DNA of 64,000 nucleotides from Gammaproteobacteria bacterium (lineage in GTDB: Bacteria; Pseudomonadota; Gammaproteobacteria; Steroidobacterales; Foliamicaceae): positions 1-64,000 of the forward strand of contig VYBN01000017.1 in assembly GCA_009844425.1 (NCBI GenBank), read 5' to 3'. Below the pieces are notes generated by a model. It did no database searches and was not told the DNA's origin. It worked only from the letters and a program-made list of their open reading frames with translations. Both the position numbers and the translations under genes were made by a program. Below, piece by piece: positions 2,537-55,891 of this stretch. Every line of letters starts with the position of its first letter. The stretch's first letter is position 1.

Positions 2537-3400
2537 TCAGGCCGCCAGCCTTTGCGGCGCCAGCTCCCGAAGCGCGCGGCCGAGCATTTCGTCTGCCATT
2601 TCCTGCGCCCGGGGCATTTCGATGTTGTTGCTGATCGAGGAGGCGAACGCCCGCACCAGCAGGGCCCGCGCCCGATCCGGCGGCAATCCGCGGGTTCTGA
2701 GGTAGAACAGCGCCGCTTCATCCAGCGCGCCGGTGGCGGCGCCGTGGGCGCATTGCACTTCGTCGGCGTAGACCTCCAGTTCCGGGCGGGTTTCCATGCG
2801 GGCGGATTCGTCGAGCAGTAGATTGTCGTTCCGCAGCCGGGCGTCGGCGCCCTGGCCGTCCGGCGGAATCAATATCCTTCCCGCGAAGCCGCCGTGACTC
2901 TCCGCGCCCAGAACGTAGCGGCACAGGCTTTCGCTCTCGGCGTGGCGGGCATGGTGGGCGATTTCCAGGTCCAGTTCCGCGCGCCGCCCGGTGTCCGCCA
3001 TCATCAGGTGGCCGTGCCGGAAGCGCGACCGGGGGCCCATCAGGCCCGCTCGCAGGGATTCGCGATCGAGGCTTGCGCCCGAACCCACGCGGACAAACCG
3101 AAGCCGCGCCTCCTGCGCAAGGCGAACCTGCCGGTCTATCTCGATCCGGCCTTCGCCTGAATCGTCCACGACGGCGACGTGACGCATTCGAGCGCCGCGG
3201 CCCAGTTCAACGTGAACCTCAAGGTGTGCGGCGAACTCTCCCTGGCCCTCGTGAAGCTCTTCAAGGTCGAGCGCGCCTCTGGGCTCCAGCACGATTCGCA
3301 AGGCATCCGCCGCCGGGGCATCGGCGCGGTGCTTGAGACGCAGGGTCTCGGCGCGCCGCTCACCGGCCTTCACGACGATGTCCAGCGCCTTGCCGCTCAC
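2537..3400 (-). CDS. sufD: SufD, Fe-S assembly complex protein
   Basis: Position between sufC and sufS; SufBD-like C-terminus (CAHGAATGALDEAALFYLRTRGLPPDRARALLVRAFA). Confidence 0.92.
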   Translation of the reverse strand: MSGKALDIVVKAGERRAETLRLKHRADAPAADALRIVLEPRGALDLEELHEGQGEFAAHLEVHVELGRGARMRHVAVVDDSGEGRIEIDRQVRLAQEARLRFVRVGSGASLDRESLRAGLMGPRSRFRHGHLMMADTGRRAELDLEIAHHARHAESESLCRYVLGAESHGGFAGRILIPPDGQGADARLRNDNLLLDESARMETRPELEVYADEVQCAHGAATGALDEAALFYLRTRGLPPDRARALLVRAFASSISNNIEMPRAQEMADEMLGRALRELAPQRLAA

Positions 3401-4158: not shown

Positions 4159-5612
4159 CCGATTGCGCCCTCCAGGCTGACGTTCATCAGGGCCTGGGCT
4201 TCGACCGCGAATTCCATCGGCAGCATGTTGAACACCTGTTTGCAGAAGCCGTTGACGATCAGGTTCACCGCGTCCTCCTCGTCCAATCCTCGCTGGCGGC
4301 AGTAGAACAACTGGTCCTCGGAGATCCGGGACGTGGTGGCTTCATGCTCCACCACCGCTTGCGGATGCGCGATGTCCATGTGCGGGAATGTGTGGGCGCC
4401 GCAGTCGTGGCCGATCAGCAGCGAGTCGCACTGGGTGAAGTTGCGGGCGCCCTCGGCCCTCGGGAACACCTTCACGAGGCCGCGGTAGGTGTTCTGCGCC
4501 TTGCCGGCGGAGATGCCCTTGCTCAGGATGTTGCTGCTGGTGTTGCGGCCGATGTGGATCATCTTGGTACCGGTGTCGGCCTGCTGGAAATTGTTGGTCA
4601 CGGCCACCGAGTAGAACTCGCCGGTCGAGTTGTCGCCGCGCAGGATGCAGCTCGGGTATTTCCAGGTGATGGCCGAGCCCGCTTCCACCTGGGTCCAGGA
4701 AATCGCCGAGTTGTCGCCGCGGCAATCGCCCCGCTTGGTCACGAAGTTGTAGATCCCGCCGCGTCCTTCTTCATCGCCTGGGTACCAGTTCTGCACCGTC
4801 GAATACTTGATCCGGGCGTCCTTCAGCGCCACCAGTTCCACGACCGCGGCATGCAACTGGTTCTCGTCGCGCATCGGCGCGGTGCAGCCCTCCAGGTAGC
4901 TGACTTCGCTGCCTTCGTCGGCGATGATCAGCGTGCGCTCGAACTGGCCCGTGTTCTGCTCGTTGATCCGGAAGTACGTGGACAACTCCATCGGGCATTT
5001 CGTGTTCTTCGGAATGTAGACGAACGAACCGTCGGTGAATACGGCCGAGTTCAGCGCTGCGAAATAGTTGTCGCGGTACGGCACCACGCTGCCCAGGTAC
5101 TTGCGCACCAGGTCCGGGTGTTCGCGCACGGCCTCGGAGAACGGGCAGAAGATCACGCCGGCCTCGGCCAGGCGGCTCTTGAAGGTGGTAGCCACCGACA
5201 CGCTGTCGAAAACCGCGTCCACCGCCACGCCCGCCAGCCGGGCCCGCTCGTGCAGGGGAATGCCCAGCTTGTCGTAGGTTTCCAGCAGCCGCGGATCGAC
5301 TTCATCCAGGCTCTTCGGCGCGTCCTTTGCCGGACCGGGCGCCGAGTAATAGGAGATGGACTGGTAATCGATCGGCGGGATGTTCAGCTTGGCCCAGGAC
5401 GGCTCTCTTGCCTCGCGCCAATAGCGGTAGGCGCGGAGACGCCAGTCGAGCAGGAACTCCGGCTCGTCCTTGCGCGCGGAAATCACGCGTATCACGTCCT
5501 CGTCCAGCCCCGGGGGCAGAGTGTCGGACTCGATGTCGGTAACGAAACCGTGCCGGTACTTGCGCTCGAGCAGTTCGCGCACTTCCGGGTTGCGTTCGGC
5601 GGTGCGGCTCAT
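4155..5612 (-). CDS. sufB: SufB, Fe-S assembly complex protein
   Basis: Start [30 protein letters not shown]; SufB sequence ([35 protein letters not shown]). ORF track extends it upstream artefactually. Confidence 0.95.
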
Positions 5613-13169: not shown

Positions 13170-13188
13170 GCAGCGGCGCTCCGATGCC

Positions 13189-13296
13189 GCCTTCTATTCG
13201 CATCCCTCTTCCGGGAGACGCATGAATACATCCCTGTAGCTTGGTTCCGCCATCCCTGGCTCACACACTCCCGGAAGAGGGATGCGAATAGAAGGC
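13189..13296. repeat. Variable-arm hairpin element, copy 1
   Basis: Perfect 29-bp inverted repeat (GCCTTCTATTCGCATCCCTCTTCCGGGAG) around a 50-nt centre ACGCATGAATACATCCCTGTAGCTTGGTTCCGCCATCCCTGGCTCACACA shared with copies at 39288 and 55717. Confidence 0.92.
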
Positions 13297-13322
13297 TTAC
13301 GGGGTGCCCTTGTTCCCGGAGA

Positions 13323-14661: not shown

Positions 14662-16218
14662 CTATCCCCTCTGCTCCGACGATTCCTCATCGGATTCCTC
14701 GTCTTTCCGTTCGCGCCTGCCGCCGTCTTCGGCCATCAGCTCCACCTGCTCCAGGCGCGCCTCGATGCGGCTGCGCCGAACATCGTCGGCATGTTCCGCG
14801 GCCTTGAGCGCGAGCTGAAGCTGGGTGTGGGCGCCATTCAGGTTGCGGCGCATGATCTCGTACTCGGCCATGTAGTAGTGGGCATCGGCCGTCTGGCCGG
14901 ACTCTCCGCTTGCCTGGGCCAGCAGGCGCATGGTCTCGAGATCGAGCTTGTCGTCCAGCAGATAGCCCATCAGCAGTTCGCGGGCGAGCGGCGCCTGTCC
15001 TTCGGCCAGCAGGGCTTCCGCATAGCGATGCCCCAGGCTCGGGTTGCCGGGGAACAGCGCCAGCGCCTCTTCGAAAATCCGCCGCGCCGCGCGGCCGTCC
15101 CCCGCAACCGCATGGGCCCGTGCAACCGCGATCCGCAACGGGATGGAGTCCGGATGGTCCGCCAGCAGGTTGTTCAGAACAGCCTGCGCCTCATCGGCGC
15201 GTCCCATGCCCAGCAGGGCCAGGCCCTGTCCGTAGAACCGGCCGACATCCGCCTCGGTCTCGGTGAGCGGCTGCGAGCGGAACTGCCGCATGGCCTCTTC
15301 CGGGCTGTCGCTGCCCAGCAGCCGCGCCTGTGCCCTGGCCAGGTAATAGCTGAGGCTGTTGTCAACGTTGCGCAGCATGTCCGGCGCAATCCGCGAGCGC
15401 GCCTCGGCGATGCGATTGACGCTGACGGGGTGCGTGCGAAGGATTTCCGGTATGGCCCTTGCGGAAAGCGATTCCGCGCGCGACATCGTCTCGAAGAAAG
15501 AGGGCAGGCCGCGGGGATCGAAACCGGCGGCGTAGAGTGTGCCGATGCCGATCCGGTCGGCCTCGTGCTCGTGCGCCCGGGTGAAATTGATCTGCTGCTG
15601 CTGCGCCATGCCCGTGCCGGCCATCAGGGCGCCCTGCATGAAGTCGCCTCCGCCGCCCATCAATCCGCCCACCAGCAGGGCGGCGAGCATCGTGGCCATG
15701 GTCATGATCGAGGTCCCGCGCATGGCCTGAATCTGCCGCGAGATGTGATTCTGGGTCACATGGGCGATTTCATGCGCGAGAACTCCGGCCAGTTCGCTCT
15801 CGTTGGCGGTCGCGTCGATCAGGCCCGTGTGCACGCCGATGTAGCCTCCCGGCAGCGCGAACGCGTTGATGGACTGGGCCTTGACGACGAAAAAGTGGAA
15901 CTGATGGTCGCCGTTCTGCGCCCGGTAGGCAAGCCGCCTGCCCAGGTTGGCGACGTATTCGTTGATCTCCGGGTCGGTCACGAGCCGGCCGGCGCTGCGG
16001 AACTGCTCGATGACGCTCAGCGCGATTTCCCGCTCCTGCTCGCGCGTCAGCACCGTGTCGGCCGCGCTGCCCATGTCGGGCAATTCCGCGCCACCTCCCA
16101 CCTGGGCGCCCGCCGGAAGGGCCTGCAGAGTGAGGGCCAGCATGAGCGCCGCGCTGGTGGCGCGCCTGGGAGCGAGGACGTCTCGTCCTCGTGGAGGGCG
16201 GGACGCTGCGAGGGTCAT
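14662..16218 (-). CDS. M48 metalloprotease with TPRs (BepA/YfgC-like); N-terminus altered by a repeat element
   Basis: HEIAHVTQNH zinc motif, HEHEADRIGIGTLYAAGFDP, C-terminal TPR-like region. Likely true start inside the ORF, near the MLALTLQALPAGAQ signal peptide. Confidence 0.88.
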   Translation of the reverse strand: MTLAASRPPRGRDVLAPRRATSAALMLALTLQALPAGAQVGGGAELPDMGSAADTVLTREQEREIALSVIEQFRSAGRLVTDPEINEYVANLGRRLAYRAQNGDHQFHFFVVKAQSINAFALPGGYIGVHTGLIDATANESELAGVLAHEIAHVTQNHISRQIQAMRGTSIMTMATMLAALLVGGLMGGGGDFMQGALMAGTGMAQQQQINFTRAHEHEADRIGIGTLYAAGFDPRGLPSFFETMSRAESLSARAIPEILRTHPVSVNRIAEARSRIAPDMLRNVDNSLSYYLARAQARLLGSDSPEEAMRQFRSQPLTETEADVGRFYGQGLALLGMGRADEAQAVLNNLLADHPDSIPLRIAVARAHAVAGDGRAARRIFEEALALFPGNPSLGHRYAEALLAEGQAPLARELLMGYLLDDKLDLETMRLLAQASGESGQTADAHYYMAEYEIMRRNLNGAHTQLQLALKAAEHADDVRRSRIEARLEQVELMAEDGGRRERKDEESDEESSEQRG

Positions 16219-39262: not shown

Positions 39263-39287
39263 CTTCGGGCAAGGGCGCTTTGATCGC

Positions 39288-39395
39288 GCCGTTCTTCGTT
39301 CCCCTTCCTCCGGGAGACGCATGAATCCATCCATGGAGCTCGGTTCCGCCATCCCTGGCTCACAAGCTCCCAGAGAAAGGGGAACGAAGAACGGC
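39288..39395. repeat. Variable-arm hairpin element, copy 2
   Basis: 29-nt arms GCCGTTCTTCGTTCCCCTTCCTCCGGGAG / CTCCCAGAGAAAGGGGAACGAAGAACGGC (two mismatches), exactly 50-nt conserved centre. Confidence 0.9.
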
Positions 39396-39431
39396 TTACG
39401 CGGCGCCGGCCCCGGAGAGGTCGGCACGCGC

Positions 39432-40333: not shown

Positions 40334-41530
40334 ATGAAAGCAACAGTGCGTATTTCAGGTTTTTGTGTGGCGCTCTCCGCAGTGCTGGTTCTGGCGAATT
40401 GCCAGACGACGGGAGGCGTATCGTCGCCGTCCGGCGGCCCTCCGGTTTCGATGCCCTCGCCCAGCGGCAGTTCGGGTTCCTCCGGGGGCTCGCAAGGATC
40501 CATGGGCGGTTCCCAGGGCTCGATGGGTGGATCGCAAGGCTCCATGGGCTCCTCCGGCGGCTCCCGGGGTTCGATGGGCGGTTCAATGGGTTCCTCCGGC
40601 AGCTCGCAGGGTTCCATGGGAGGTTCGATGGGTTCGACCGGCAGTTCTCGCGGTTCGATGGGATCCGCAGGAGGCTCCATGGGCGGCTCGGTCGGTTCAA
40701 CCGATGGATCACGTGGTTCCATGGGCGGTTCGATGGGTTCTGCCCGTGGCTCTATGGGTTCTGCCGGTGGTTCGATGGGCTCCATGGGAACACCAGGCGG
40801 GTCGCGGGGTTCGATGGGCTCGCAAGGCGGCTCACAGGGTTCGATGGGCTCGCAAGGCGGCTCACAGGGTTCCATGGGTTCCATGAGTGGCGCCGGCGGA
40901 TCGACCGGCGGACCTTCAGGCCGGCCGGGTGGTTCCGGAGGTCAACAGGCCGGTTCCACGGGAGTCGGCGGTGGTTTCGGAGGCGGGCAGGGCAGCGAGC
41001 CCGGCGGCAGAGGCGGTGCGGGCGGTGCACAGGGCGGGGGCGACCTTGAGGGAATCCTGCGTGAATCCATGGAGGGTTACGACCGCGAAATTGCCCGTGA
41101 GCGCGGCGCCATGGCGTCAGCCGGACAGGGTTCCGCCGCCGGTTCCGGAGGCGCGGGCGGAATGATCGGCGAGCCCGGCGGCTCCGGCGGTGCGATGGTG
41201 ACTATACCCAATGCGGCCGGCGGTGGACTTGGCGGCGAGGGCCAGGGAACGGGCGGCGAATCGGCCCGCGGCGACGCGGGCGGAAGCAGTGCCGGAAACG
41301 GTGGCGGCTCGGGTGGGGGCTCAGGCGAAGGCGGGCCGCTCGAAGACGGTGCGCAGGGCGGGCAACCGGAGACGAAGATCGAAATTCCGGAAGACATTGC
41401 GGAGGCTACCGGCAATGAAGACCAGGTGGCGCGGCAGATACGCGAAGCGGCGGAGCAGGAAGAAGACCCCCGCATACGCGAGGCATTGTGGGACGAATAT
41501 CGCAGGCACATGGGACTGAAAACAAGATGA
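40334..41530 (+). CDS. Gly/Ser/Met-rich low-complexity lipoprotein
   Basis: Signal peptide and lipobox VLVLANC; long GSMGGSQGSMGGS repeats; conserved-looking C-terminus IEIPEDIAEATGNEDQVARQIREAAEQEEDPRIREALWDEYRRHMGLKTR. Confidence 0.8.
   Translation: MKATVRISGFCVALSAVLVLANCQTTGGVSSPSGGPPVSMPSPSGSSGSSGGSQGSMGGSQGSMGGSQGSMGSSGGSRGSMGGSMGSSGSSQGSMGGSMGSTGSSRGSMGSAGGSMGGSVGSTDGSRGSMGGSMGSARGSMGSAGGSMGSMGTPGGSRGSMGSQGGSQGSMGSQGGSQGSMGSMSGAGGSTGGPSGRPGGSGGQQAGSTGVGGGFGGGQGSEPGGRGGAGGAQGGGDLEGILRESMEGYDREIARERGAMASAGQGSAAGSGGAGGMIGEPGGSGGAMVTIPNAAGGGLGGEGQGTGGESARGDAGGSSAGNGGGSGGGSGEGGPLEDGAQGGQPETKIEIPEDIAEATGNEDQVARQIREAAEQEEDPRIREALWDEYRRHMGLKTR
40807..40866 (+). repeat. Perfect 30-nt tandem repeat, two units
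   Basis: GGGTTCGATGGGCTCGCAAGGCGGCTCACA twice in direct succession. Confidence 0.95.
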
Positions 41531-42771: not shown

Positions 42772-42833
42772 GCCTGGGGCGGAGGGCGTCCCGCCCTCCG
42801 GGAAAGCGAGACGACCTCGCTCCCAGGAGCGGA
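42772..42833 (-). repeat. Palindromic repeat family B, copy 3 (inverted)
   Basis: Reverse complement CCTGGGAGCGAGGTCGTCTCGCTTTCCCGGAGGGCGGGACGCCCTCCGCCCC aligns with copies 1 and 2. Confidence 0.8.
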
Positions 42834-47659: not shown

Positions 47660-48045
47660 AGAAGGTCATCGCAGTCGCCGCAGTCATCGGCCTGGCTGTG
47701 GGCCTGACCTGGGCCGCCGAACAGGTGGGCGGCTGGTTAGGTTTCACTCAGCAGGACGGGACCGTCGAGGACACCGCATCCGACAATACGAGCGCCCCCG
47801 GGAACGAGGCCATACCTCCTGGGGGGGAGGGCGTCCCGCCCTCGATTGAAGCTTCCGCCGATTCTCCAGCCCAGGGAGAAGACGGGTCTCCCGCACAGCC
47901 GGAACTGTCCACCGAAGTCACCTCGATCGAAGAGGACCTGGCCCGCATTGAGGAAGCGCTGGGCAGCGATGAGGTACTGGAGGAGTTCACGCCGTCGGAG
48001 CCCCTTTCGGCGGACAACCCGGTAGTCTGGCCCACCGACATCTGA
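47656..48045 (+). CDS. Hypothetical exported protein containing a family B repeat remnant
   Basis: N-terminal hydrophobic segment; ATGA overlap with previous gene; acidic disordered middle. Confidence 0.6.
   Translation: MKKVIAVAAVIGLAVGLTWAAEQVGGWLGFTQQDGTVEDTASDNTSAPGNEAIPPGGEGVPPSIEASADSPAQGEDGSPAQPELSTEVTSIEEDLARIEEALGSDEVLEEFTPSEPLSADNPVVWPTDI
47815..47846. repeat. Palindromic repeat family B, partial copy 4, inside a CDS
   Basis: CTCCTGGGGGGGAGGGCGTCCCGCCCTCGA contains the GGAGGGCG-CCGCCCTC hairpin; encodes PPGGEGVPPS. Confidence 0.65.
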
Positions 48046-55716: not shown

Positions 55717-55828
55717 CGCTGGTGCTTCTGTGCGGCCCTTCCGGGAGACGCATAAATCCATCGATGGAGCTTGGTTCCGCCATCCATGGCTCACACACTC
55801 CCGGAAGGGCCGCACAGAAGCACCAGCG
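55717..55828. repeat. Variable-arm hairpin element, copy 3
   Basis: Perfect 31-bp arms CGCTGGTGCTTCTGTGCGGCCCTTCCGGGAG around a 50-nt centre matching copies 1 and 2. Confidence 0.93.
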
Positions 55829-55891
55829 AACATCGCAAGCTGTTCCACGCTGGGCCGCCACAGCGAAAACTGCGGGATAATGCGCGGCGGT

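Follow-up and report, generated by a model that had tools for sequence, protein, structure and literature searches.

A dispersed hairpin family in Gammaproteobacteria with a conserved folded centre and locus-specific arms probably maintained by DNA copying

Intergenic hairpins scattered through the genomes of a gammaproteobacterial genus and its relatives constitute a dispersed family of new design, in which a nearly constant centre is enclosed by arms that differ from locus to locus and are probably kept complementary by copying at the DNA level. We describe here the dispersal of the family, its structure as defined by covariation, the matching of its arms, the spectrum of their paired changes, and the inversion of its core. 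The family is widespread and apparently has had no name so far: its core sequences were not found in print in the limited set of literature searched, and an earlier description elsewhere is possible. To our knowledge, no bacterial stem-loop family combines a fixed core with freely diverging perfect arms.

The window, that is, the whole stretch of 64 kb that was analysed, contains three inverted repeats (13189..13296, 39288..39395, and 55717..55828; Table 1), and no further one with arms of at least 18 bp and a spacer of up to 140 nt was found in it. An earlier note, made from the letters alone, had described a near-identical centre of fixed length between self-complementary arms whose outer parts are unlike, and this description holds for the window copies: the spacer is 50 nt in each, the arms are 29, 29, and 31 bp long with complementarity of 100%, 93%, and 100% in copies 1, 2, and 3, the centres are 86–91% identical when compared as 70-mers, and the outer arm sequences are unlike from locus to locus. 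Copy 1 is predicted to fold at −65.8 kcal/mol compared with −28.9 ± 3.5 for shuffled sequences (z = −10.5), and its opposite strand gives z = −10.9 against shuffles. The window also holds a separate dispersed short palindromic repeat of the CCTGGGAGCGAGGACGTCCCGTCCTCG type (1037-1066, 16165-16194, 42773-42802, and 47818-47847) and degenerate tandem repeats with a period of 21-30 nt (40474-40916).

Table 1. Parts of the three hairpin copies in the window.
Feature	Position	Strand	Sequence or basis
Copy 1 outer flank X, conserved	13175..13188	+	GGCGCTCCGATGCC; family consensus GCGCTTCGATYCC; profile of the flanks of 63 'type A' copies
Copy 1 left arm of 29 bp, locus-specific in its outer ~20 bp	13189..13217	+	
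Copy 1 conserved 50-nt centre	13218..13267	+	
Copy 1 hairpin H1, TACA-TCCC-TGTA	13227-13238	+	
Copy 1 hairpin H2, GCCA-TCCC-TGGC	13249-13260	+	
Copy 1 2-bp closing helix	13242-13243 with 13266-13267	+	
Copy 1 right arm, complements left arm perfectly	13268..13296	+	
Copy 1 outer flank Y, conserved	13297..13306	+	TTACGGGGTG; flank profile
Copy 2 outer flank X	39274..39287	+	GGCGCTTTGATCGC; flank profile
Copy 2 left arm	39288..39316	+	
Copy 2 centre; H1 39326-39337, H2 39348-39359	39317..39366	+	
Copy 2 right arm, 2 mismatches with left arm	39367..39395	+	
Copy 2 outer flank Y	39396..39405	+	TTACGCGGCG; flank profile
Copy 3 left arm, 31 bp	55717..55747	+	
Copy 3 centre; H1 55757-55768, H2 55779-55790	55748..55797	+	
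Copy 3 right arm, complements left arm perfectly	55798..55828	+	
Copy 3 right tail, conserved in 'type B' copies	55827..55850	+	GCGAACATCGCAAGCTGTTCCACG; overlaps the last two arm bases

These three copies are a small sample of a large family. A 68-nt query, in which the centre is extended by the inner 9 bp of both arms, detects 41 copies in the window's own genome of 3.03 Mb, and the genome-wide covariance search that the earlier note had recommended, here with a model based on 66 copies, raises the number to at least 149. With the same model, the eight other genomes of the genus yield 29-123 copies each, which places the family in nine of nine. Each copy scanned has an arm pair of 27–33 bp with at most three mismatches, and copies devoid of arm complementarity, which the earlier note had thought would speak against its reading, did not turn up among them. 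At the level of the order, 31 of 147 genomes give a hit, the nine of the window's genus included; in a sample of the phylum, the figure is 13 of 299, and the 12 besides the window's genome all belong to the same class. The stem alone scores 50-53 bits, as measured on the reverse strand of copies 1 and 2 of the window, so a hit weaker than about 55 bits in a distant genome was counted as a member only after its core had been read by eye. Clear relatives in other families of the order and in further families of the class keep the core plan ACGCCGTGAAYNCATCCNTGNRGGCTC...CATCCNTG..., weaker ones are spread over ten or more other families of the Gammaproteobacteria, and a member with perfect arms of 28 bp lies on plasmid pHP-187 of Marinobacter adhaerens. 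The cultured strain M. adhaerens HP15 carries a copy. Public records with the core sequence are gammaproteobacterial metagenome-assembled genomes. Searches for a known origin were negative: Rfam 15 gave no match for the family at the gathering threshold and only chance hits for copy 1 at E-values up to 10, a phage search gave no match, the window query matched no plasmid, and two IMG/VR pattern hits were chance matches with no hairpin.

Across the family, an information profile shows that the centre (near 2 bits per position) and the inner ~10 bp of the stem are conserved, as are short outer flanks, while the outer arms are nearly uninformative. The four pairs that rank highest by mutual information, out of 1176 in the centre (24-49, 9-20, 25-48, and 32-41), are all base pairs of one nested structure, which consists of the long stem P1, hairpin H1, and a two-bp helix bearing hairpin H2. 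Pairs 24-49 and 9-20 each occur as T-A in 71 cases and as C-G in 18, with zero exceptions. H1 takes the form TCCA-TCCA-TGGA, with variants CCCA..TGGG and TACA..TGTA, and H2 the form GCCA-TCCC-TGGC, with variants GGCA..TGCC and GACA..TGTC. Judged from this covariation, the 50-nt centre is a small three-way junction. RNAalifold agrees on the stem and H1 and largely on H2, but draws a different short helix beside H1. Read on the + strand, the wobble pairs of the centre are G.T (about 25), and A.C does not occur, which identifies the + strand as the one that folds; the idea of CsrA-like GGA loops on the reverse strand, raised from the sequence, was dropped because it is the forward strand that the wobbles favour. 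The stems evolve about three times faster than the core, and the strand-specific wobbles of the core indicate selection acting on a single strand in folded form, a feature that pure DNA drift fails to explain. One copy (L045 in G008) has a small GC-rich inverted repeat inserted in its own H2 loop.

Each of the window copies is intergenic. A class-I fructose-bisphosphate aldolase gene and a convergent gene for a cytosine/purine permease enclose copy 1, copy 2 lies 25 bp past a gene for a PLP enzyme, and copy 3, which lies 17 bp past a gene weakly matching a von Willebrand domain, is followed by a short-chain dehydrogenase gene. When 99 copies are sorted by gap type, 65 fall in tandem gaps (31 ++ and 34 --), 27 in convergent and seven in divergent ones; in the gene map of the window, five of 52 junctions are divergent and four of 52 convergent. 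The two orientations in tandem gaps, taken with the gap types, indicate that the orientation of the core is independent of transcription and that gene ends are favoured. Orientation relative to replication could not be used in G005, where GC skew is too weak for placing the origin and terminus. A location in short intergenic gaps that are often convergent and rarely divergent, and a three-way junction that covaries with G.T wobbles on the + strand, would agree with an RNA structure, such as a 3' end, a terminator, or a stability element, whose stem is kept by stepwise compensatory selection. We regard this explanation as unlikely, because the core orientation is untied to the neighbouring gene and flips between orthologues, the stem is not followed by a U-tract in the window copies, mismatch-free arms of at least 100 bp are longer than selection on the stem of an RNA could plausibly preserve, and the paired changes of the arms are free of transition bias.

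The last point follows from comparison of the arms themselves. Arms of 27–33 bp are unlike between loci, yet 97.6% paired. At arm pairs 9–28, 98.4% are Watson-Crick compared with 42.8% when partners are shuffled; in the alignment, pairing is 97.7% compared with 69.7% after shuffling and 37–51% when the arms are slid, the covariation score is 0.733 against 0.172, and 32 of 39 pairs have changed on both sides. Orthologous copies were defined by both 1.4-kb flanks, in genomes that are mostly metagenome assemblies. Over 39 orthologous pairs with a mean flank identity of 91.6%, the arms carry 179 double, pair-preserving changes and 37 single ones, and the centres differ at a mean of 2.45 of 50 positions. 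If compensation proceeded step by step through G.U or A.C intermediates, transitions should be favoured, whereas copying from arm to arm should not favour them. The double changes comprise 86 transitions and 93 transversions, compared with 4448 and 4568 among single substitutions in the flanks (Fisher p = 0.76), and a stricter set of 23 close pairs gives 28 and 31 (p = 0.80); in these close pairs, adjacent changes are mildly clustered (13 versus 8.3, p = 0.05). Exchange between copies, instead of point mutation, may account for part of the arm differences, and cores have been exchanged between copies with different arms (e.g. L101/L129). Copy 1 is identical across its whole 108 bp in two species (L012 in G000 and L095 in G001), with flanks that are ~92% identical, and in this full identity it is unlike most orthologous pairs.

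At five loci with conserved flanks, the core lies in opposite orientation between orthologues, core orthology being ambiguous at double-hairpin loci (L031). Between L010 and L058, the 50-nt core is inverted, and the arms and adjoining bases agree except for one base; in G004, similar arms with an inverted core are also found within one genome. Template switching between the arms of an inverted repeat homogenises the arms and inverts the spacer (PMC8604942), and both outcomes are seen in the hairpin family: its arms are homogenised with paired changes that lack transition bias, and its spacer is inverted with the arms kept at L010/L058 and four further loci, and in G004. The published cases are isolated short repeats, with spacer inversions of 2–5 substituted bases in yeast genes (PMC8604942), whereas here a whole dispersed family appears to be involved, 50-nt spacers flip, and arms reach up to 126 bp. 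Two facts, the lack of transition bias in the double changes and the inversion of the core at five loci, point to DNA-level arm copying by template switching over stepwise compensatory selection, since a spectrum shaped by wobble intermediates is missing and the centre flips. Compensatory evolution of the stem, one of two routes suggested in the earlier note, is borne out insofar as the paired arm changes are real, but the stepwise route fits neither their spectrum nor the flipped centres.

Near-identical arms recur at unrelated loci in the window's genus, and a double-hairpin unit of ~300 bp is present at no fewer than eight places in G004 (L337-L345), with 98% identity across 354 bp when two contigs are compared; these observations indicate that the element disperses together with its arms. 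Within the double unit, two core types occur in both orientations inside similar arms. Its ends are inverted copies of flank X, whereas in single copies the short flanks X and Y are unlike each other. The copy 3 site is empty in G002, G007, and G004, with no arm remnants, and the copy 1 site is empty in G006 and G002. At the copy 2 site, element-free relatives retain a remnant of flank X (G001, G002, G006, and G007) or of flank Y (G003), and in G007 ~10 bp of the left arm remain as well. These differing scraps read as repeated deletion, and because of such remnants losses appear to be common, while gains are what we infer. A clean insertion with target duplication was not found at the copy 1 and copy 3 sites, where filled and empty alleles have diverged, and comparison of sites revealed no recognisable target duplication, in agreement with the earlier remark that the features of an ordinary transposon are missing. 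At the orthologous site of copy 3, L168 (G005) and L169 (G003) carry a small inserted gene pair instead of the hairpin, which by eye looks like a HicA/HicB-type toxin-antitoxin pair.

The other route raised in the earlier note was that each insertion makes the arms as an inverted copy of the flanking target DNA; fold-back synthesis with the inner stem as primer would be one way. Within the genus this finds no support, given the near-identical arms at unrelated loci and the element-free orthologous sites, which lack both arms apart from the ~10-bp scrap in G007; an empty allele already holding the full inverted repeat, the other observation the earlier note had named, was not among them. In addition, ten of ten further copies from G027 have arms of exactly 29 bp and related sequence. 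G122, a genome from another family, offers a different picture, its longest arms resting on a fragmented assembly. Its core is 52 nt long and nearly invariant, and its arms, mostly 47-126 bp with 0-1 mismatches at most loci, differ in sequence by locus except for a common inner part of ~12 bp; the longest, of 126 bp, are free of mismatches. L252/L274 have perfect arms of 107 bp in which an array of ~14-bp tandem repeats is mirrored. Acquisition of arms from other loci was rejected, as a 107-bp arm occurs in the G122 genome only as its own two arms. Arm length in G122 is hard to attribute to selection, and these unique arms leave room for outward extension by flank copying; as the origin of the arms at every insertion, however, flank copying seems to us quite improbable. 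SbcD (TIGR00619) scored below the curated cut-off in all 15 genomes searched (G000-G008, G122, G027, G067, and others), five of them with weak sub-threshold hits and hairpin-poor genomes among the 15; given this result, the genomes may show how cells tolerate arms longer than 100 bp.

What might move the hairpins was considered from known systems. They could derive from a DDE insertion sequence, for instance one of the ISAs1 family, as its sub-terminal parts or as miniature forms of it, and be moved by it. On the Ancylobacter plasmid pDCA (L332), two inverted hairpins of the family (2977-3082 and 4360-4470, with a haloalkane dehalogenase gene beside them) flank an ISAs1-family transposase inside the ends of the insertion sequence, but the hairpin is absent from four other ISAs1 copies, and no ISAs1-like gene was found at the loci examined in hairpin-bearing genomes, those of the window's genus included. 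ISAs1 was set aside as a general mover, four hairpin-free copies giving it no support; an origin of this kind is very improbable, and because those copies lack hairpins the pDCA pair may be a passenger of its ISAs1-family element. REPINs or BIMEs moved by a RAYT (Y1) transposase resemble the family in size, intergenic dispersal, hairpin form, and paired changes, and head-to-head hairpin pairs resemble BIMEs. Nevertheless, the Y1_Tnp domain (PF01797) is found in none of the nine genus genomes while control genomes are positive, and REPINs have conserved ends and a variable spacer, the reverse of the hairpin family. With the Y1 transposase absent from those nine genomes, we rejected a REPIN/RAYT origin, which is hardly credible. 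That the outer arms are the least conserved part argues against an integron attC site, in which the outer R and L boxes are conserved.

Comparison with described repeats emphasizes the arrangement of the family. REPIN, REP, and BIME elements with RAYT are likewise short, intergenic, dispersed, non-coding, and hairpin-forming, show paired stem changes, and can have two inverted units side by side (PMC3116915, PMC8266576). The hairpin family differs in that a RAYT gene is absent and its palindromic ends are unconserved; with a conserved three-way-junction centre and locus-specific arms, it is the mirror image of the REPIN design. Bacterial stem-loop repeats, including ERIC and NEMIS, are similarly intergenic, structured, and present in tens to hundreds of copies (PMC2267715). 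Repetitive hairpin and double-hairpin elements of mitochondria are also dispersed and invade intergenic DNA, but in sponges their stems are conserved and their loops vary, an opposite arrangement in another type of genome (PMC2800124). Coding palindromes in the mitochondria of Nematomorpha have long and perfect inverted repeats in which the two arms show concerted evolution, and for which template switching has been proposed; they lie within genes and have no common core sequence, unlike the hairpin family (PMC6649704).

We suggest that the family is a small non-autonomous dispersed DNA element of roughly 130-150 bp, made of a hairpin of ~110 bp and short conserved flanks. Its ~50-nt core folds on one defined strand into the arm stem, H1, and the short helix with H2, and would function as single-stranded DNA or RNA. 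The element spreads within genomes, arms included, presumably by an enzyme acting in trans. After insertion, selection or exchange between copies would leave the core nearly constant, whereas the arms would drift at an approximately neutral rate, each arm mutation being copied to the other arm so that the palindrome stays perfect. Such copying would most probably occur by replication template switching in the hairpin, and the same process could invert the core at some loci. A more ambitious and so far tentative model, which we hold to be possible though doubtful, is that these are gammaproteobacterial mobile hairpins with a protein-recognised core, each copy a self-maintained palindrome whose arms are renewed by fold-back synthesis, copied from one to the other, and lengthened from the flanks (up to 126 bp in one genome), and whose core is flipped.

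The family has implications beyond its own genomes. With well over 100 independent palindromes per genome sharing a common core, it would document in natural replicates how, in bacterial chromosomes, one arm is copied onto the other and spacers are inverted. Moreover, perfect pairing of arms is normally taken as a sign of selection on RNA, and the mutation spectrum here disagrees; the spectrum of this hairpin family is thus a caution for covariation-based RNA discovery.
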